Shown one piece after another: positions 8,439 through 30,122 of a stretch of DNA of 30,123 bases. The notes under the pieces are model-generated. The model was not told the DNA's origin. It searched no databases and saw only the letters and a list, made by a program, of their open reading frames with translations. How positions within the stretch are numbered: the stretch's first letter is position 1; each line of letters begins with the position of its first letter. This DNA is from a virus: positions 30,272 through 60,394 of the IMG/VR virus record IMGVR_UViG_3300001450_006449. One strand, 5' to 3'. Made by a program: the position numbers and the translations under genes.

Positions 8439-11400
8439 ATGGAAAAATTAGAAGAATTATATTCATTAATCCCTGAAGGAATGTACTCTTCAATGGAGCA
8501 GTTTCAATTAGATTTAGAACAAGAAGGATTAGAATCTATATTTGAACTTATACCTGAAGGTATGTATGCTGATATTGAGCAATTTACAGATGACTTTGTT
8601 GAGTTAAAAAAAAAAGACGATTCACAATTTTCTTCTCAAGAGGAAGTTATGGAATCAGATACAGAGGTGGTGGAAGAGCCTGGTACATCGGTGCCTTTGT
8701 CTCCCGAAACTCCTGAACAACCTCAAGTAGTTACTGAAGAGGTTGTTGAAGAAGATCAAACACAAATAGAAACTCCTCCAGACCAAGTAGAAGACACAGC
8801 CAGTTATATTAATTTAGAAGGCTCTACTGATCTTACTGAAGAAGAATTACAAAACCTTACTCCTGGAGAAAAAAACACAGCTCTTGAAAGAACGTTTGGA
8901 AAGAATGAGTTCACTGATTTTTTTGGAGATATGTATCGAGCTGGATCTCAAGGACAAGGACAGGCTGGTTTAGTAGATGACTCCTTAGAGATATTTGGTA
9001 AAGGAAAGAGTGCTTCCGATTCAGACATTGAAGATTTTATAGCGGCTCATAATGTTATGACATCCAGTGGACCATCTGATGAGATGAAGGATTTTGATAA
9101 AGTATTTGAACAGTCGGGTGGTGGTATATATGGTTTCTTAAAAGGATTATTAGAAAGCCCAAGTGTTGCTCCTCAATTATTTGTTAGTTCTATTTCAGCT
9201 ATGCTCAACCCAGCGTCATTAGCCGCAGCCGGTGCTACTACGGGTGGGTTTGCTTTATCAGGATCTGGAGCGGGACCTTTAGGTGCAGTAGCAGGAGGAA
9301 TTGCCAGTATACCATTTGCTATGGGAGCAGCAGGTGCTACCTTGGAGACAGGCTTATCTTTTGCTGAGTTCTTAAATGAAGAGTTAGAAGAAAAAGGATT
9401 AAAGTTTACTAAAGAAGATATTAGAAAGGTTCTTAATGACCCTGAGGCTATGAGTCGTATACGTGCTAAATCAGCAGGTAGAGGGGCTATTATAGGTATT
9501 GTAGATAGATATGCTGCAGGACTTGGCGGAAAATTAGTAGGTGGTATGGCAAAGACAGGAGCTAAGAAGGGAGCCAGGATTTTAGCAGCAGCTGGAGTAG
9601 AGGCTGTAGGGGGTTCTACAGGTGAGGCGGCAGCTCGAGCAGTAGTAGGGCAAGACATGGATATTAAAGAGATTGGTTTTGAGGGAATAGCAGGAACATC
9701 TACTACTCCTATAACTTATCTATATGGTACTCAATTAGCCAAGCCTGTTTATAAAATAAACAACAAAGGTACTATGGGGGTAGTCGATAGAAAGACTATG
9801 GTGGAAATGATTAACACTCCTGATGACAAGGCTTTTGCTGCAATGGATATAGAGATTGTAAATGATCCTGAGTTAAAAGCAATTGCTAAAGCAAGAAAGA
9901 CTAAGTTAGTACAAGAATCTGCTATCATAAACCAATTAAAAGAAGCAGGAATTACAGATGAGACTGCTATTGCAGAACTCACAGCTTTAGAAAGAGAGAA
10001 ACAAGCATTACAAGGAAACACAACAAGAGCAGGAAAGAAAAAATTATCTGAGATTGATGCAAAGATTGACGCTATCATGGACCAGGAAGTAACAGAAGAG
10101 GTAGAAGTAACAGAAGATGAATTAGTTACTCAAGACTCAGACGCTGTAAAAAGAGAAACTTACGAAACCATTAATGATGATGGTAATAAAGTGACAGTAG
10201 AAGTTACAACAGCTAAAGATGGTAGTAGGATTTTAAGGTATAAAGATGCTGAAGGAAATACTTTTCAGACAGAAACTTTGGCTAAAGATAATGATATAGC
10301 TAATGAAAAAATTATTGAGTTAAATGTAGCTGAAGAAGGAGCTGATATCACTAATATAGAAACAATAGAAGGGTTTGAAAATATAGCAAACAAAAAAGTA
10401 GTAGCCAAAAGAAAACAAGAACTTAAAACTAAACAAGATGCCATTCAAGAGTCAAGCACAGAGAGCGTGGATGTACAAGAACAAACCGAAGATGGCCGAG
10501 CAGTGGGAGATGGAGACACCCAGGCGACCATTACCGAAGAGAGTATCCAAGAAGAACAAACCGATGTTGACGCGCCAACGCAGGAGGAAATAGATACTGA
10601 GTCAAGAGACTTAGAATCTTTCCTTAATGATAATGATGTTGTTACTGAAGAAACAGAAGTAACTACTAATGAAATAGTGGATGAAACTCCAGGACAAATA
10701 GTAAATGATAACTTTACGGTTACTGAAAAAACTACTACGGAGAATGATAGTTATTATAACTCTGACGTATTTACTCAAGAGAATCCTAACACTACAGTAG
10801 ATCAGCATGAGAATAAGATAATTAACTTAGCTACTAAAGCAGTTAAAGCAATAACTAAAATATTACCTGACACTAAGGTAGTGGTTCATAGGTCTCAAGA
10901 AGCTTACAATAAATATGCAGATGTTAAAAATACCAGAGGAACTTTTGATCCAGGTACTAATACTATTCATATTAATATGCCTTTGGCTAATAATAAAACC
11001 ATAGCTCATGAGGTATTTCATGCGGTGTTATATACCAAGTATGGAACTGATATTAAGATAGCTGAGGTTACAGATCGAATGGTGAAAGCTGTTAAGAGAA
11101 AAGTAAAAGATAAAAAATTAATCAAACAGTTAGATGACTTTGCAGCTAAGTATGATAACTTCCAAAACGAAGAATATCTTTCTGAGTTGGTTGGTATATT
11201 AGCCGACAACTACCCATCACTCGCTGCACCTGAAAAAAGTATTGTACGTAAATGGTTTGAGAAAGTAGCTAAGATGTTAAAGATAGAAGTAGCTATTGAT
11301 ACAGATGCAGATGTTTTAGATTTATTAAATACTATTAGTAAGAAAGTTAAAGAAGGAACGGAGATTGCTACTGAAGAAGTAACGCAGTTAGATGCGTTTG

Positions 11401-14400
11401 AAGGGGGGCAAGTGGTAGAAAATCCTGCATCAGCTTTACAAAAAAATCAGGTAGGAGATTTTGAAGTGACATATACTCAGCAAGAAAGTGTAGCTGACAT
11501 GATTAATGCAGGTTTAATTACTGAGCCGAAAGATATTTCTTTTATAGAAGATTCGGAAGTAACTATAACTGCTCCTGATGATATGTTAGCGGGAGAGATT
11601 AAATATAAAGGAAAGGTAATTTTTGAAGGAGAAGGAGGTGTATTTTTTGTAACTAAGTTTGGAGATGTTTGGGCTTCCGGTAAAAAGGGGACTGCTAATA
11701 CAATAGCAAATAGTTTGAATAAACAATTAAAAAATAATAATGGTAAAGCATATTTAGTTTTAACTAAAGGTACTGATGCTAAGTTAGTTAGTAGTGCTTC
11801 GGGAGTTACCTCTACGTTGGCTATTTTAAATACCATGTTAGATAATAATTTAATTGCTCCTTCTATTTTTAGAAGTGCTGTATCTTCAGCGGTAAAAAAA
11901 GCGGGAGGTATAATTGATTTACGTCAAAGTGCAAAAGATTTAAAAACCGATATAGCTAATTATTTTACTGACCCTACTACAACAACTTTTGAAAAGAGAG
12001 GTTTTGTTGTTAAAGATATAGTTGGTGAGATTGCTAAAACATTAGATAAACCAAGTCAACAAGCTATAGCAAAATTTTTAGGTGGAGATATTAAAAGGTC
12101 AGTAACTAAAGGGGAAACAAAATTTGGATCTCAATCTCTTGTAGATTTAATTGCTCGTATTGCTGCAGAAAAATTAACTAAAGGTCTAAATGTAGGGGAT
12201 GTGTATGCGGTAATAGAAGTTAATAATGAGGTAGAAGTAAAAGAAGACTCGCATCCAAGTTATCCATTTCATATATCATTAAAAGATGGTGGTAAACCTA
12301 TCTTACATTTATTAAAAAATAGACAGCCAGGCGGAGAAGTATTAATTCAAAAATCTGGTAAGCCTTATGCGGTAAGAAATGTAAGTGTGGTGGAAGGTAA
12401 AGTAAAAAAGGCTGACTCTAAAGTAACTGAAAAGAAAAAAACTACTAAACAACGTCAGCAGAAAGTAGTGTTTAATATAGAGAAGCAAAGAGTATATAAA
12501 GATGATGCTTCAGGAGTTACATTCTTGACTAAAGGATATGGTGGTAGGTTTATTAATATATCAAGGAAAGCAGTTACTATAAAAGATATTGATGGCTTAA
12601 GTCAATATCAGAAACCATTAGTAGAGGTAACTATGGAGAGAGATGTGTATAACAAACAGCCTGACGCAAGGACTGTAATAGATGGGAAAGAGAAGTTTGT
12701 GAATCAATTAGATACTATAAGAGGATTTAAAAAGATAAGATTAATTGAAGATACCCCTGCTGTTAAAAATACCCTACAAAGGATAAGGTCCTTAGCACAA
12801 CAAAGTGGTATTAACAAAAAGAATTTTTTACCAGGAACATTATCTAATCCTCAAGCTCTTAATAGAATACTAAAAGAATTAGGATATAGTTTAAAAACAT
12901 ATGGACCACCAACTAAACCTTATGGTTATGGTATTATAAAACCAGATGGTAAGTTATTTAGAATGTCTCAGCAAAGACAACAAGTGGCAGACGTGTTAAC
13001 CACAGATATGGATGCGGTAGAAATAATTACTATTGCCAGAGCCAATAACTTTAGAGGACCAGCTATTAAAGACTACTTAGTTAGAGTAAAGAAAATGAAA
13101 GTTAAAGATGTAGTCGATTTACTTAAAGTTCCTGTCGATATATTCTCTAATATTCCTGAAGCATTTACTAATATAAAAGAAGGAATGAATGAAGGTGTTA
13201 GACTTTATACTGACATCATAGAGAAATCTAAGAAGTGGCAAATAAAAAATAAAGCTACTGACGCAGCAACTTTTGATAAAGCTGTACAGTTTTTAGAAGA
13301 AAGCAAATTGTTTAAAAATCAAGCCGACCCAAAAAGAAAAGCATTATCTACTCTTCAAAAAGAAATGATTGTAGGTATGCAAAAATCTTTAGGAGTTCGC
13401 CCAATGAAAAATACTAACTTAAAGCTTAGAGCCCTAAGACAATCATTAAAAGATACTAAGCGAGGAGCTAAAGAATTAAAGGCTGTTCAGTCTAAATTAA
13501 GAAACTTTATTAGAAGATCTTTACCAGCAAAGCTATATACTAAAGGGGAGATAACTACTTTAATATCTGATGTTACTAATGCAACGGAAGCTAATATAGA
13601 CAACCTTATACAAAAGGTAATAGATAAAATTACTACTATACAAGTAGCTGATTTAGAAACAACTATTGATAAACTATTAAATGATCAGTACGAGAAAGTA
13701 GAAAGCGGTAGAGAGAAAGGGAAGAAGATATCAGTAGATGTAAATGATAGGCTGAAAGCTTTAAAGAAAGATATGGTTACTGATAGTATGGTGGCTGATG
13801 ATGTAGTAAAAAGAAACTTAGAACTCAATCAAGAGTTTAACGAAATAACTAATAAGTCAGAACAATTAAGTGAAGGAGATTTAAGTAGATTAATAGATAT
13901 TAAAATCTTAATCAATCTTAATAATGCTACCTTAATGGAGAGCACTGATGTAAATAAAGTGCAAAGTTTAAATGAGGCAGTTCAACTTCTAACTGAAGTA
14001 GTTGGTAGAGGAAAAGAATTATTTAAAGCACAACTTAAAAAGGATCATAAAAGATACATGGATAATAAGGAGACTGTCTATGAGGCGGTAACTGGAGATA
14101 AAGTAGATATGAGTGACCCAGAGCAAGTAGCTAAAGCAAAAAAAACACAAGGAAAGAGAACCAGAAGAAAAGCCAGACGTGAAACAGATAGCTTATTTAA
14201 AAAAGCTATGAGGTCGATAGACTTAGCGTTAAACTCATTCGTAAAAGCAAGCGAAAGTTTATCTGGGTTAATGAATATAATTGACAAATTGCCTGGAGAT
14301 TTGATAGGAGGTAAAGTTCGTAAGATGGTATACAATAAGTTTAATGAAAGCTTAAGAGTATATAAGGCCAGAATGAAAGGTAATCGCCAAAATATTGAAA

Positions 14401-16442
14401 CTAAATTACAAGAAGTGTTTGGTAAAAAATGGAAGTCTGCAGTTACTAATATGAGAAAGCCTATTAATACTGGAATTTATATTAGCCCTGCTGAAGTGAA
14501 AAAAGCGCAAGAAAAATATGATGCGGATCCAAGTAGAAAAAATAAAAAGAATCTCAATAAAGTTATAACAGATAATGAAATTATCATGAGTCAAAGCGAG
14601 ATACTTTATCAATGGCAGCAATACCAAGACCCGGCTAACCTTCCTTCGTTTGCTAATCCTGACAACCCTTTCTTTGGGGAAGATCATAAACGTATTATGG
14701 ATGGTCTTATGGAAAAAGTTGATCCCAAAACCAAGGAGATAGGAGACTGGTTAGTAGAGGAATTTTATCCTTCTTTATATGACCATTATAATAAGACGTA
14801 TAAAGCTATTTATAGAACCAATCTACCTTGGAATGATAAGTATGCTGGTAGAATTTACAGGGAAGCCAATGTGCCTAATCCTTTAGACTTATTAGGAACA
14901 GATATTAAATCTAACAATCAAGTGTCTGCGGCTTCAACTAAAGTAAGAAGAGCTAATACTAAGCCTATCACTAAGATGGATATGATGGATGTAATGCTTA
15001 CTTACACTACAGATATGGAGTGGTTTGCATCACATGCAGAAGCAGTAAGAGATGTAAACAAAATGTTTGATGATCCATTAATTGCTCAAGCTATTGAAGA
15101 TAATAATGGAGAAGGAACTTTACTTCTAATTAGAAGTTCTATAGAAAAAATAGCAAGAAGAGGTATTAATAATGCAGCGCGTGGTAAATTTATTAATGCT
15201 ATTAATAATATGTTTATATCAGCAAGACTTGGTGCTAACCCTACTATTTTCTTAAAACAAATGACTTCCTTTATTACTTTTGCAAATGATATTGGATTTG
15301 TAAATTATATAAAGTATGCCGCTAAGAATAAAACAGAAGCTATAAAAGTATATAAAGAGATATGGAACAACTCTGTGTATGTACAAGACAGAGCTTCCGA
15401 AAGAATACAAAGTGTTATAGAAAGTTATACCGCTATGGGTAATCTGGAGTTTAACCCTTCTGATAATTTTATAATAAAATTAATGATGGCCCCTGTAAAG
15501 TATGGAGATTTAGGCGCTATATTTTTAGGAGGAAGTCCTAACTACTCTTATTATAAAGCTGAGTTTCAGAAGAAAAATCCAACTGCTACTGAGCAACAAG
15601 CGATTGATCATGCTATTAGAAAGTTTGAAGATGACACTAAGAACACTCAGCAATCAGCAGATTTACAAGATAAAGATTTTTATCAAACATCTGATCCTAT
15701 CATTCGTTCTTTTAATATGTTCTTAACTACTCCTAAACAATACTTAAGAAAAGAATTTGGAGCTATGAGAAACTTATATCGTAAGTTAAAAGCTTTTGAT
15801 AAAAATGCAGGACAGGGAACTTTAGGTGAAAATATTAGACAGTTAGCTATGTACCATACTGTTATGCCTATGTTCTTCCAGTTTGTTGCTCTTGGTTTCC
15901 CAGACTTAAGCGATTTAGAGGATGAAGAAAAAGAAGATTTATTAAGAGCTGCAATTATTGGAAACTTCAATGCTTTATTTATAGCAGGAGATGTGATAGC
16001 TATGTTAGCTGATGCCGCTCAAGATAAGCCATGGGCTGGAACTACTAAATCATTAGCTCCACTAAATGTAATGACAGAAATCACTACCCTTTATACGAGA
16101 GCAGAAAAAACAAAAGACCCTAAAAAGAAAGCAGAATTAACACAGAAATTAATATTAAGAGTAACTGAATTATCATTAACCCCTACCAAACTTCCTCTAC
16201 CACTGGTGAACATTGCTAAGTATGCTAAGAATATTGATAAATTAGGAGAGGGTGGTACTGAAAAAGATTTCTTAAGATTGTTTAATTACTCCGACTATGT
16301 AATTAATAAAGACGATAGAAAGAAAGGAACTAAACTAAGTAAAGAAGAAATGAAATTATATTTCCCAGACCTATATGAGCAAGAGATGGCACTGGATAAA
16401 GAAATGAAAGAGTTAGATAAATCTTTAGAGTTAGAATTTTAA
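8439..16442 (+). CDS. Giant (2667 aa) ejection/polyvalent virion protein with HExxH peptidase motif
   Basis: Visible layout: residues 10-22 and 37-49 are a repeat of LIPEGMY-x-x-x-EQF; residues about 60-130 form an acidic Pro/Glu/Gln linker; residues about 240-320 and 345-430 are Ala/Gly-rich hydrophobic segments that could enter a membrane; residues about 440-800 are acidic and coiled-coil-like; HEVFH lies at 857-861 with acidic candidates for a third zinc ligand at 911-916 (NEEYLSEL), as in zinc metallopeptidases; then come mixed alpha/beta regions and long helical C-terminal domains. Large phage proteins mixing enzymatic and helical domains are known as polyvalent proteins, and T7 gp16-type ejection proteins are similarly large. 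It starts 2 nt after the 674-aa gene. It probably travels in the capsid and is injected; the peptidase could cut peptidoglycan-associated or host proteins. No transglycosylase motif was recognised. Confidence 0.65.
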   Translation: MEKLEELYSLIPEGMYSSMEQFQLDLEQEGLESIFELIPEGMYADIEQFTDDFVELKKKDDSQFSSQEEVMESDTEVVEEPGTSVPLSPETPEQPQVVTEEVVEEDQTQIETPPDQVEDTASYINLEGSTDLTEEELQNLTPGEKNTALERTFGKNEFTDFFGDMYRAGSQGQGQAGLVDDSLEIFGKGKSASDSDIEDFIAAHNVMTSSGPSDEMKDFDKVFEQSGGGIYGFLKGLLESPSVAPQLFVSSISAMLNPASLAAAGATTGGFALSGSGAGPLGAVAGGIASIPFAMGAAGATLETGLSFAEFLNEELEEKGLKFTKEDIRKVLNDPEAMSRIRAKSAGRGAIIGIVDRYAAGLGGKLVGGMAKTGAKKGARILAAAGVEAVGGSTGEAAARAVVGQDMDIKEIGFEGIAGTSTTPITYLYGTQLAKPVYKINNKGTMGVVDRKTMVEMINTPDDKAFAAMDIEIVNDPELKAIAKARKTKLVQESAIINQLKEAGITDETAIAELTALEREKQALQGNTTRAGKKKLSEIDAKIDAIMDQEVTEEVEVTEDELVTQDSDAVKRETYETINDDGNKVTVEVTTAKDGSRILRYKDAEGNTFQTETLAKDNDIANEKIIELNVAEEGADITNIETIEGFENIANKKVVAKRKQELKTKQDAIQESSTESVDVQEQTEDGRAVGDGDTQATITEESIQEEQTDVDAPTQEEIDTESRDLESFLNDNDVVTEETEVTTNEIVDETPGQIVNDNFTVTEKTTTENDSYYNSDVFTQENPNTTVDQHENKIINLATKAVKAITKILPDTKVVVHRSQEAYNKYADVKNTRGTFDPGTNTIHINMPLANNKTIAHEVFHAVLYTKYGTDIKIAEVTDRMVKAVKRKVKDKKLIKQLDDFAAKYDNFQNEEYLSELVGILADNYPSLAAPEKSIVRKWFEKVAKMLKIEVAIDTDADVLDLLNTISKKVKEGTEIATEEVTQLDAFEGGQVVENPASALQKNQVGDFEVTYTQQESVADMINAGLITEPKDISFIEDSEVTITAPDDMLAGEIKYKGKVIFEGEGGVFFVTKFGDVWASGKKGTANTIANSLNKQLKNNNGKAYLVLTKGTDAKLVSSASGVTSTLAILNTMLDNNLIAPSIFRSAVSSAVKKAGGIIDLRQSAKDLKTDIANYFTDPTTTTFEKRGFVVKDIVGEIAKTLDKPSQQAIAKFLGGDIKRSVTKGETKFGSQSLVDLIARIAAEKLTKGLNVGDVYAVIEVNNEVEVKEDSHPSYPFHISLKDGGKPILHLLKNRQPGGEVLIQKSGKPYAVRNVSVVEGKVKKADSKVTEKKKTTKQRQQKVVFNIEKQRVYKDDASGVTFLTKGYGGRFINISRKAVTIKDIDGLSQYQKPLVEVTMERDVYNKQPDARTVIDGKEKFVNQLDTIRGFKKIRLIEDTPAVKNTLQRIRSLAQQSGINKKNFLPGTLSNPQALNRILKELGYSLKTYGPPTKPYGYGIIKPDGKLFRMSQQRQQVADVLTTDMDAVEIITIARANNFRGPAIKDYLVRVKKMKVKDVVDLLKVPVDIFSNIPEAFTNIKEGMNEGVRLYTDIIEKSKKWQIKNKATDAATFDKAVQFLEESKLFKNQADPKRKALSTLQKEMIVGMQKSLGVRPMKNTNLKLRALRQSLKDTKRGAKELKAVQSKLRNFIRRSLPAKLYTKGEITTLISDVTNATEANIDNLIQKVIDKITTIQVADLETTIDKLLNDQYEKVESGREKGKKISVDVNDRLKALKKDMVTDSMVADDVVKRNLELNQEFNEITNKSEQLSEGDLSRLIDIKILINLNNATLMESTDVNKVQSLNEAVQLLTEVVGRGKELFKAQLKKDHKRYMDNKETVYEAVTGDKVDMSDPEQVAKAKKTQGKRTRRKARRETDSLFKKAMRSIDLALNSFVKASESLSGLMNIIDKLPGDLIGGKVRKMVYNKFNESLRVYKARMKGNRQNIETKLQEVFGKKWKSAVTNMRKPINTGIYISPAEVKKAQEKYDADPSRKNKKNLNKVITDNEIIMSQSEILYQWQQYQDPANLPSFANPDNPFFGEDHKRIMDGLMEKVDPKTKEIGDWLVEEFYPSLYDHYNKTYKAIYRTNLPWNDKYAGRIYREANVPNPLDLLGTDIKSNNQVSAASTKVRRANTKPITKMDMMDVMLTYTTDMEWFASHAEAVRDVNKMFDDPLIAQAIEDNNGEGTLLLIRSSIEKIARRGINNAARGKFINAINNMFISARLGANPTIFLKQMTSFITFANDIGFVNYIKYAAKNKTEAIKVYKEIWNNSVYVQDRASERIQSVIESYTAMGNLEFNPSDNFIIKLMMAPVKYGDLGAIFLGGSPNYSYYKAEFQKKNPTATEQQAIDHAIRKFEDDTKNTQQSADLQDKDFYQTSDPIIRSFNMFLTTPKQYLRKEFGAMRNLYRKLKAFDKNAGQGTLGENIRQLAMYHTVMPMFFQFVALGFPDLSDLEDEEKEDLLRAAIIGNFNALFIAGDVIAMLADAAQDKPWAGTTKSLAPLNVMTEITTLYTRAEKTKDPKKKAELTQKLILRVTELSLTPTKLPLPLVNIAKYAKNIDKLGEGGTEKDFLRLFNYSDYVINKDDRKKGTKLSKEEMKLYFPDLYEQEMALDKEMKELDKSLELEF

Positions 16443-26844: not shown

Positions 26845-27033
26845 TTAATCTATTAAGTTAATTTCACTAATTTGTTCTACACTACACATTACAACTACAC
26901 TATCATCTAATTTAGATAGTTTGTTTTCAAATTCTTCTGCCATCATTTCAAAGTCATAAGTTATACTACCATCCTCATTTACTATGTAATAGGTTGGTAC
27001 TACAATTTGGTTTACTGCAATTTCTTTTGCCAT
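26845..27033 (-). CDS. Small unknown protein directly downstream of a hammerhead ribozyme
   Basis: A 62-aa acidic protein (TYYIVNEDGSITYDFEMMAE, FENKLSKLDDSVVVMCSVEQ). It likely forms a small alpha/beta fold; no family is recognised. Ribozyme cleavage between 27057 and 27056 would leave this gene with a 23-nt 5' leader consisting of AGTATA, the AACTTAAATTAAATA motif and AA before the ATG, so this gene's mRNA 5' end is probably made by self-cleavage. Confidence 0.6.
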   Translation of the reverse strand: MAKEIAVNQIVVPTYYIVNEDGSITYDFEMMAEEFENKLSKLDDSVVVMCSVEQISEINLID

Positions 27034-27050: not shown

Positions 27051-27104
27051 TATACTGACTACTCCTAAGAGTAGTTTCGACTATTAAAGTCTCATCAGAG
27101 TATA
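27051..27104 (-). ncRNA. Type I hammerhead self-cleaving ribozyme (copy 2)
   Basis: Read on the - strand: stem I 5' side TATACT (27104-27099); core CTGATGA (27098-27092); stem II GACT, loop TTAAT, AGTC (27091-27079); core GAA with A15.1 (27078-27075); stem III ACTACTC, loop TTAG, GAGTAGT (27075-27058); cleavage nucleotide C17 at 27057; stem I 3' side AGTATA (27056-27051). All canonical core positions (C3 to A9, G12-A14, A15.1-U16.1, C17) are present, and all stems pair perfectly (6, 4 and 7 bp). Cleavage is expected after C17. It begins 1 nt after the stop codon of the 88-aa gene. The companion at 29631-29684 has the same core but compensated changes in all three stems. Confidence 0.94.
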
Positions 27105-27105
27105 T

Positions 27106-27372
27106 TTATAAGTGTCCTCCATATTGTTTACCTACAATATCAAATCTCCATTCGCTATCTGACTCAGCATCTTCCATTCCATCAAACTCATACAAACCAG
27201 TTCCAAATTCATATTCTGTCTTTGATATTTTTTTATCTATCTCCTCAAAATATAAGTCCTCATTGTCAATTAGATATGATTGAACATCTTCTTCTTTAAT
27301 ATTCTTCGGTACTTCTACTTCTACCTCAGCGTATTTATGATATACACTTCTTTGCATAATTTTTACTTTCAT
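27106..27372 (-). CDS. Small acidic unknown protein
   Basis: An 88-aa, acidic, beta-rich protein (YAEVEVEVPKNIKEEDVQSYL, EIDKKISKTEYEFGTGLYEF, SDSEWRFDIVGKQYGGHL). It shows the small ferredoxin-like strand/helix pattern of many phage early proteins, without known function. Its stop codon lies 1 nt before a hammerhead ribozyme, so its mRNA 3' end is probably fixed by self-cleavage. It has the A/T leader motif before the ATG. Confidence 0.6.
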   Translation of the reverse strand: MKVKIMQRSVYHKYAEVEVEVPKNIKEEDVQSYLIDNEDLYFEEIDKKISKTEYEFGTGLYEFDGMEDAESDSEWRFDIVGKQYGGHL

Positions 27373-28893: not shown

Positions 28894-28907
28894 TCTATTT
28901 AATTTTA

Positions 28908-29003
28908 ATTGTGTAAGGAACATTCCTCTACTACCAAATCCCCAATGCATTTACGCATTGAGGTTAAGGTAGGATAGGCACAACCCTATCGTTCACACAC
29001 AAT
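28908..29003 (-). ncRNA. Candidate multi-stem structured RNA element in the early operon (class unknown)
   Basis: Non-coding gap of 114 nt between two genes. On the - strand: an outer stem ATTGTGT (29003-28997) with ACACAAT (28914-28908); GAAC (28994-28991) with GTTC (28921-28918); hairpin GATAGG/CCTATC (28990-28985 with 28978-28973, 6-nt loop); stem CTACC/GGTAG (28972-28968 with 28935-28931); within it a 9-bp hairpin CCTCAATGC/GCATTGGGG (28963-28955 with 28948-28940, one G-U pair, loop GTAAAT). AGGAA/TTCCT (28927-28923 with 28920-28916) competes with the GAAC/GTTC stem, so two folds are possible. No hammerhead core is present. Confidence 0.5.
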
Positions 29004-29007
29004 TAAA

Positions 29008-29220: not shown

Positions 29221-29604
29221 TTATACTAAAGGGTTTAATCCTTTCTTTAAATTAGCAATCTTATATACTGATTCGGCAAACTCCAACATCTGTTGAGCAT
29301 CCTTACCATCTAAATCATCATCTCCAATGATATCTTTATGGTAAACGCACATATCAAATAACTTGTCATCTCCTGATTCATAACACATAGATTCTGCCTT
29401 ACTAAGTGCTTCATATACCTTATTCCAAACATCCTCTACATACTCAGATGCCCATTCTAAAACTTGCTTAGAAGATGCTTCAGCATCTATGGTATCAGAT
29501 AACTCATCGTTCCATACTGATAAGTATACATTGTCCTCATAGATTCTTGCATCTATGCCATACTTGGTTTTAAGTACCTCTACTGCTTTTTCGCTTGTTG
29601 TCAT
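29221..29604 (-). CDS. Acidic unknown protein downstream of a hammerhead ribozyme
   Basis: A 127-aa acidic, helix-rich protein (TSEKAVEVLKTKYGIDARIYED, VLEWASEYVEDVWNKVYEALSK, DGKDAQQMLEFAESVYKIANL). It has no recognised domain. Its leader differs from the A/T motif used by the other genes (CACACCCACAATG), and self-cleavage upstream at 29637/29636 would leave a 32-nt 5' leader that begins with a hairpin (29635-29622). Confidence 0.6.
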   Translation of the reverse strand: MTTSEKAVEVLKTKYGIDARIYEDNVYLSVWNDELSDTIDAEASSKQVLEWASEYVEDVWNKVYEALSKAESMCYESGDDKLFDMCVYHKDIIGDDDLDGKDAQQMLEFAESVYKIANLKKGLNPLV

Positions 29605-29621
29605 TGTGGGTGTGTTAATTG

Positions 29622-29635
29622 GTATCTTATGATAC
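29622..29635 (-). promoter_or_regulatory. 5'-end hairpin that competes with ribozyme stem I
   Basis: On the - strand GTATC-ATAA-GATAC is a perfect 5-bp hairpin with a 4-nt loop. Its 5' arm is the 3' strand of hammerhead stem I, so the two structures exclude each other. After cleavage the downstream mRNA would start A-GTATC..., one base before this hairpin, which could shield the 5'-OH end or hinder re-ligation. Confidence 0.55.
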
Positions 29636-29684
29636 TGACACTACTTGCGTAGTGTTTCGGATATTAAATCCTCATCAGAGTATC
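29631..29684 (-). ncRNA. Type I hammerhead self-cleaving ribozyme (copy 1)
   Basis: Read on the - strand: stem I 5' side GATACT (29684-29679); core CTGATGA (29678-29672); stem II GGAT, loop TTAAT, ATCC (29671-29659); core GAA plus A15.1 (29658-29655); stem III ACACTAC, GCAA tetraloop, GTAGTGT (29655-29638); C17 at 29637; stem I 3' side AGTATC (29636-29631). Every conserved hammerhead core nucleotide is present and all three stems are fully paired; stem I is the open stem, making it type I. Cleavage is expected between 29637 and 29636. It directly abuts the stop codon of the upstream gene. The 54-nt length and stem II loop are identical to copy 2, while stem pairs differ in a compensated way. 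Confidence 0.95.
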
Positions 29685-30122
29685 TTATCCTTCCATTGAT
29701 TTGTATTGACTCCAATCTTTATAAGATGTTCTTACCTCTAATACATCATTCAAAGTTTCAATCTTACTGCCATTAATATGACATACTAATCTTAACTCAT
29801 CCTCAGTAGCAATTCCATACTCTATGATATTATCCCAGACCTCATCAAAAGTGTGTTCTTTTACATCAACTGCATCTCCATTCTCATCAAAATCTCCTAA
29901 GATATCCTCTGCTTGTATTCTCGGTAGGAAATGCTCATCTTCAGAGTAGATACCTTTAAAGTCATGCAGTACATCAGATAACTTTAACTCTCTATTGTTT
30001 ACTACTTCCTCTACCCATTCAGGATTCAATTCTACCATTTTACTCATTATCTTCCATCTCTCTTGTACATCAGATGATTGGTTTGGAATTAGATTATCCA
30101 TTACCCATTTGTATGGTGTTTT
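29685..30122 (-). CDS. Acidic unknown protein, possibly 5' partial at the right edge
   Basis: An acidic protein of at least 138 aa from the ATG at 30101. The frame is also open upstream to the window edge (TPYKWV precedes that Met) and the ATG lacks the usual A/T leader, so the real start may lie outside the window. Visible segments are VELNPEWVEEVVNNRELKLS, an Asp-rich centre (DILGDFDENGDAVDVKEH) and a WDNIIEYGIATEDELRLVC helix. No family is recognised. The TAA stop is immediately followed by hammerhead copy 1, so its mRNA 3' end is probably fixed by self-cleavage. Confidence 0.6.
   Translation of the reverse strand, partial: KTPYKWVMDNLIPNQSSDVQERWKIMSKMVELNPEWVEEVVNNRELKLSDVLHDFKGIYSEDEHFLPRIQAEDILGDFDENGDAVDVKEHTFDEVWDNIIEYGIATEDELRLVCHINGSKIETLNDVLEVRTSYKDWSQYKSMEG

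Follow-up and report, generated by a model that had tools for sequence, protein, structure and literature searches.

Two short RNA elements encoded on the minus strand of a phage genome, each lying in a gap between genes, have the organization of type I hammerhead ribozymes, and we suggest that both are probably catalytic and cut a polycistronic phage mRNA between genes while it is being transcribed. The window analyzed is a stretch of 30,123 nt, positions 30,272–60,394 of the record IMGVR_UViG_3300001450_006449 (~60 kb in all), and coordinates are those of the window unless a contig is named.

Two type I hammerheads in gene gaps of one strand

A first-pass annotation of this DNA had described one hammerhead, our site 1, with a full core, stems of 6, 4 and 7 bp, a GCAA tetraloop and a cut between 29637 and 29636. 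Direct reading of the minus strand confirmed the structure and its coordinates, with which the predicted cut agrees, and the ORF positions bear out the description of the site as lying in an ORF gap, sense to its neighbors and abutting a stop codon. The annotation overlooked a second complete copy, site 2, which was found by searching for the core motif and lies 2.6 kb away on the same strand (Table 1). At both sites stem I is open and stems II and III are closed by loops, the type I topology, and CTGATGA, GAA, the A...U pair and the C are all present, with stems of 6, 4 and 7 bp free of mismatches. They are among the features by which hammerheads were defined by Perreault et al. (2011), namely C3 U4 G5 A6 N7 G8 A9, G12 A13 A14, A15.1-U16.1 and H17, three stems with paired bases beside the core, covariation of the stems, a tertiary contact of stem I with stem II that speeds the reaction, and self-cleavage 3′ of H17. 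Stem lengths and loop II are equal at the two sites; the bases differ in all three stems, and pairing is kept.

Table 1. Hammerhead elements and flanking ORFs in the window.
Feature	Position	Strand	Description
Hammerhead site 1	29631–29684	−	type I order; all invariant core nucleotides; stems 6/4/7 bp
Site 1 P1, GATACT	29684–29679	−	pairs with P1′ AGTATC (29636–29631)
Site 1 core, CTGATGA	29678–29672	−	
Site 1 P2, GGAT-TTAAT-ATCC	29671–29659	−	
Site 1 GAA	29658–29656	−	
Site 1 P3, ACACTAC-GCAA-GTAGTGT	29655–29638	−	
Site 1 C17	29637	−	predicted cut between 29637 and 29636
Third strand, AGTATC-ATAA-GATACC	29618–29636	−	site 1 only; P1′ could re-pair after the cut
ORF upstream of site 1	29685–30101	−	138 aa; no PHROG family; TAA (29687–29685) touches P1
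ORF downstream of site 1	29221–29604	−	127 aa; no PHROG family; 32-nt leader after predicted cut
Hammerhead site 2	27051–27104	−	TATACT-CTGATGA-GACT(TTAAT)AGTC-GAA-ACTACTC(TTAG)GAGTAGT-C-AGTATA; predicted cut 27057/27056
ORF upstream of site 2	27106–27372	−	88 aa; stop codon one base before P1
ORF downstream of site 2	26845–27033	−	62 aa; 23-nt leader after predicted cut

From the observed core, stems, conservation, strand and position we infer cleavage during transcription, with an effect on mRNA stability and expression. As the polymerase passes, each hammerhead would fold and the RNA would be cut 3′ of C17, just past the upstream stop codon and 23–32 nt ahead of the next start codon. The upstream mRNA would retain the P2 and P3 hairpins and end in a 2′,3′-cyclic phosphate, and the downstream mRNA would begin with a short 5′-OH leader, such ends following from the known chemistry of the hammerhead reaction. 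The operon would thereby be divided into separately decaying mRNAs with no need for a host nuclease, and the benefit to the phage may lie in 3′ end formation and in separate decay rates.

The genes around the sites are consistent with such a role. Downstream of the two sites, on their strand, come genes for a Sak-like annealing protein, an exonuclease, a primase/helicase and a helicase, and no terminator-like site occurs on the minus strand between 23.7 and 30.1 kb, the first being at 23.57 kb. The first-pass annotation had placed its hammerhead on the sense strand of a gap in a phage early operon; the gap and the strand hold, and the early operon is plausible from gene content. In other phages, too, homologues of the 138-aa ORF have a hammerhead after them.

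Folding calculations gave a mixed picture for site 1. The minimum-energy fold of its 54 nt is exactly the hammerhead (−15 kcal/mol, z −3.15); with flanks included, a different fold is favored by ~3.8 kcal/mol in ViennaRNA, which ignores the energy of the core and of tertiary contacts, and this we count against cutting. Site 2 with its flanks has neither a preferred competing fold nor a third strand in the same program. At site 1, the third strand could, by re-pairing with P1′ after the cut, form a 5′ hairpin on the downstream mRNA, and it is also present in two relatives (L005 and L007). It is unlikely, though, that site 1 is a switch, in which P1′ would pair either with P1 or with the downstream strand (GTATC-ATAA-GATAC) while P2 would face competition from the end of the upstream ORF, with translation or some factor setting the extent of cutting. 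The alternative hairpin, the competing fold, the same strand in the two relatives and comparable arrangements in a handful of further lineages, in some cases around a ribosome-binding site, fit this proposal; site 2 nevertheless lacks the strand, as do relatives whose P1 sequence is different, and the strand was observed in 22 of 125 copies, where 12.6 were expected and the shuffles reached at most 22. A general third-strand switch was rejected, being not clearly above chance across all copies. In one lineage (L015, L022, L077, L080, L100 and L102) the strand that re-pairs with P1′ encloses the ribosome-binding site (TATAGC-ATGGGAG-GCTATA), an arrangement that could couple cutting to translation.

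A second structured RNA lies in another gene gap of the same strand (28897–29006, −43.2 kcal/mol, z −6.4) and has no credible Rfam match. Its homologues, with a covarying apical stem and a conserved TGGGNNTTTGGTNGTAGAGG, occur in L001, L003, L007, L288, L292, L296 and L298, and all of these contigs except L288 have hammerheads nearby. It is possibly an undescribed motif and perhaps another ribozyme.

Detection and spread among viral sequences

A scan for the type I core with its three stems gave two matches in the real window, compared with one in 300 dinucleotide shuffles of it (9 Mb); 2.16 Mb of reversed sequence yielded no match. The covariance model R2, built from 35 phage sequences that excluded this phage and its relatives, scored site 1 at 59.6 bits (E 6e-12) and site 2 at 57.6 bits (E 2e-11) in 489 kb searched, with no third match anywhere in the 60 kb record. 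Together with the comparative evidence below, this model supports the assignment of both sites to the type I hammerheads.

The Rfam check suggested in the first-pass annotation gave no hammerhead type I match in window or record: neither site reached the 34-bit cut-off of RF00163 Hammerhead_1, or E ≤ 10, in the window or in the whole record searched with that model alone. This miss does not refute the hammerheads, because the same cut-off misses nearly all sister copies. Across seven sources, among them the window and several contigs with arrays, a single copy exceeds the RF00163 cut-off (L114 1738–1786, 36.1 bits); another covariance model, R1, gave 43 matches in a set of six contigs that shares four members with those seven sources. 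The Rfam absence is thus a limit of the library model, and since Rfam models miss almost all such copies, current annotation undercounts phage hammerheads. Theta, HDV-like and other Rfam self-cleaving families gave no match at gathering cut-offs.

To follow this form more widely we used the search pattern CTGATGANNNNTTAATNNNNGAAA, in which 16 bases are fixed and the stems are free. Among the matches listed, complete hammerheads were present at at least 73 of 126 sites in viral contigs and at none of 118 in bacterial and archaeal contigs, and R2, run on 80 of those cellular loci, found no hammerhead in them. The pattern counts and R2 therefore tie this hammerhead form strongly to viral sequence; other hammerhead types occur in prophages (PMC3088659). 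Cultured carriers identified with R1 and R2 are the Pelagibacter phages HTVC019P, HTVC131P, Jormungand and Eistla (two sites), Agrobacterium phage OLIVR1 and Methylophilales phage MEP301, and cultured Flavobacterium phages, the Elemovirus strains, carry hammerheads as well. The HTVC019P, HTVC131P and Eistla sites are located among small genes, upstream of the gene encoding the phage RNA polymerase.

Most of the phages have one site or an array of varied spacing. Several records hold four to eight or more hammerheads each, and in the uncultured contig L115 (2288–8613) ~15 hammerheads alternate with ~14 ORFs within 6.3 kb, about one for each gene junction. A hammerhead between phage genes, called unusual in the first-pass annotation, was already described in 2011 (PMC3088659) and is a common arrangement in viral contigs; in openly readable articles we found nothing specific on phage hammerhead arrays or on pelagiphage hammerheads. 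The two same-strand sites, 2.6 kb apart, could also be imagined to release a 2,580-nt RNA (29636 to 27057, ~8 genes), possibly ligated into a circle. We consider this highly improbable, given the prevalence of single sites and of irregular spacing and given that a search by Perreault et al. for circular or spliced products was negative (PMC3088659).

Conservation, neighboring genes and alternative readings

Several features that the search did not impose recur among the copies. P1 is exactly 6 bp long in 119 of 129 hammerheads, and an A stands directly before P1 in 119 of 123 and directly after P1′ in 113 of 123. Outside the CTGATGANNNNTTAATNNNNGAAA matches, loop II mostly has five bases with U first and last (mostly UNANU). 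The fixed P1 length, the flanking A's and the form of loop II suggest a contact between stem I and stem II. H17 is C in 111 copies and A in 18. Placement relative to genes is likewise nonrandom: of 136 distinct hammerheads, 34% have a stop codon no more than 3 nt from P1, compared with 2% at random places and 1% on the opposite strand. The start of an ATG ORF is no more than 60 nt from the cut in 69% of them, compared with 13% and 12%, respectively.

In an alignment of hammerhead copies (A1), both partners have changed at every one of the 6 pairs of P1, at 3 of the 4 in P2 and at 2 of 4 in P3; the rows were chosen by a scanner that required pairing, so the 100% paired figure is circular. Support for stem covariation that is independent of A1 comes from the two window sites and from natural P2 alleles in Elemovirus strains, which infect Flavobacterium sp. 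BAL314 and have almost identical sequence flanking the hammerhead. P2 reads GACT/AGTC in strains 7-9A and E_6-9C, and GGTT/AACC in C_14-1A, B_14-3B and 8-9C, as well as in 15-9B and C_13-1C, which have C at the free position N7. Strain 6-3D (L253 16039–16106, minus strand) has the hybrid-looking GACT/AACC, with two positions unpaired. A strict scanner had suggested that there were Elemovirus records without hammerheads, which covariance model matches overturned. The annotated hypothetical protein at L253 16030–16137 (NC_055853.1 gp66) is antisense to the hammerhead, and the same CDS appears in other Elemovirus records; such CDSs are very probably spurious.

By primase, the nearest named relative of the phage is MW202828 (64% identity over 99%), followed by the Elemovirus phages, and from these relatives the host is probably a member of the Bacteroidetes. 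MW202828 has no hammerhead by the strict scan, as confirmed by R2, and in the close relative L087 both sites are damaged (11972–12034 and 10282–10340, minus strand), one by an extra base after the core and the other by replacement of stem III and of the P1′ sequence. The hammerhead is thus not essential. A blastn search with the hammerhead flanks gave no match among named phages. The window also contains, on the plus strand, a single ORF of 2667 aa (8439–16442), and MW202828 encodes, within its block of structural genes, a protein of 3859 aa.

The patchy distribution, with MW202828 lacking a copy and damaged copies in L087 and Elemovirus 6-3D, would suit a passenger relic, that is, a mobile or inherited hammerhead that looks intact and does nothing useful. 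We find this improbable, as the compensatory changes, the fixed P1 length, the strand and the placement at stop codons in unrelated phages point to selection.

A reading that is compatible with cleavage, and that we entertain as a tenable though tentative possibility, is that the hammerheads serve mainly as boundaries of portable gene cassettes. A small accessory gene that carries a self-cutting unit at its 3′ end could be placed before any other gene, and the shared core would let recombination swap the neighbors. We compared gene order among the window's relatives, the records behind L001, L003, L005, L007, L116 and L002. The neighboring gene was shared in 6 of 28 comparisons at hammerhead junctions, compared with 233 of 383 at nearby junctions without one and 682 of 860 at far-away junctions (Fisher p 8e-5); some of the 'syntenic' hammerhead junctions stem from a fused ORF that connects two gene families, and their retention biases against a mosaic pattern. 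A different gene comes after the 88-aa gene and its hammerhead in each of the window, L116 and L002, and the P2 of Elemovirus 6-3D resembles a hybrid of two alleles. The phages compared are few, however, the comparisons are not independent, the gene calls are crude and the accessory region is mosaic anyway, so that the location of hammerheads where neighboring genes are swapped in relatives is suggestive only. A broader proposal, rather doubtful at present, would join the two roles: many unrelated phages may use type I hammerheads as an inter-gene connector by which an operon cuts itself and accessory cassettes are reshuffled. The extreme case, if this were true, would be one hammerhead per gene, giving single-gene mRNAs.

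For cutting between genes, the reading we prefer, we count the core and stems at two sites, the R2 scores, the viral bias, the unimposed features, the Elemovirus alleles, the stop and start codon placement and the long minus-strand stretch free of terminator-like sites. Against it we count the Rfam miss, the competing fold at site 1, MW202828 without a copy and the damage in L087.

Comparison with known systems

In the early transcript of phage T7, RNase III sites divide the mRNA between early genes and leave 3′ hairpins. RNase III is a host protein enzyme, whereas here the proposed catalyst is the RNA itself, and the ends would be 5′-OH and cyclic phosphate. The Theta ribozymes of gut phages (PMC10879173) are likewise small, self-cleaving and phage-borne, but they have an HDV-like fold and are tied to suppressor tRNAs; the elements here are hammerheads, and the window has no tRNA.

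The role of prokaryotic and phage hammerheads was called an open question in a 2017 review (PMC6155905). The dense arrays, the natural alleles in cultured phages and the tie to mosaic junctions make the question of function testable. Direct tests are offered by cultured Flavobacterium phages from one mesocosm, whose hammerheads differ in stem changes that are compensated and, in one strain or more, in a change that is not; the contig with a hammerhead at nearly every gene junction offers a further test.

The type I element order of sites 1 and 2 is that of Rfam RF00163 Hammerhead_1. In halovirus HF2, the HHphage hammerhead lies upstream of an early helicase gene, and a transcript 5′ end was mapped within 3 nucleotides of the cut (PMC3088659); that element has a variant core and belongs to an archaeal virus, whereas the core here is canonical. 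Perreault et al. (2011; PMC3088659) had already described clusters of hammerheads that flank genes in prophages and phages, and the sites reported here join that class. Those authors demonstrated that three clusters are active in vitro and that the A. tumefaciens cluster is active in E. coli, and proposed that long phage transcripts are cut at prophage clusters (PMC3088659). As in those clusters, a hammerhead core is present in several copies beside single genes or small blocks of genes. Unlike the prophage-type clusters that were tested, the record here is of a non-integrated phage, all copies are type I and up to ~15 occur in one contig, with a P1 of 6 bp and a stem II mostly of 4 bp closed by a 5-nt loop.
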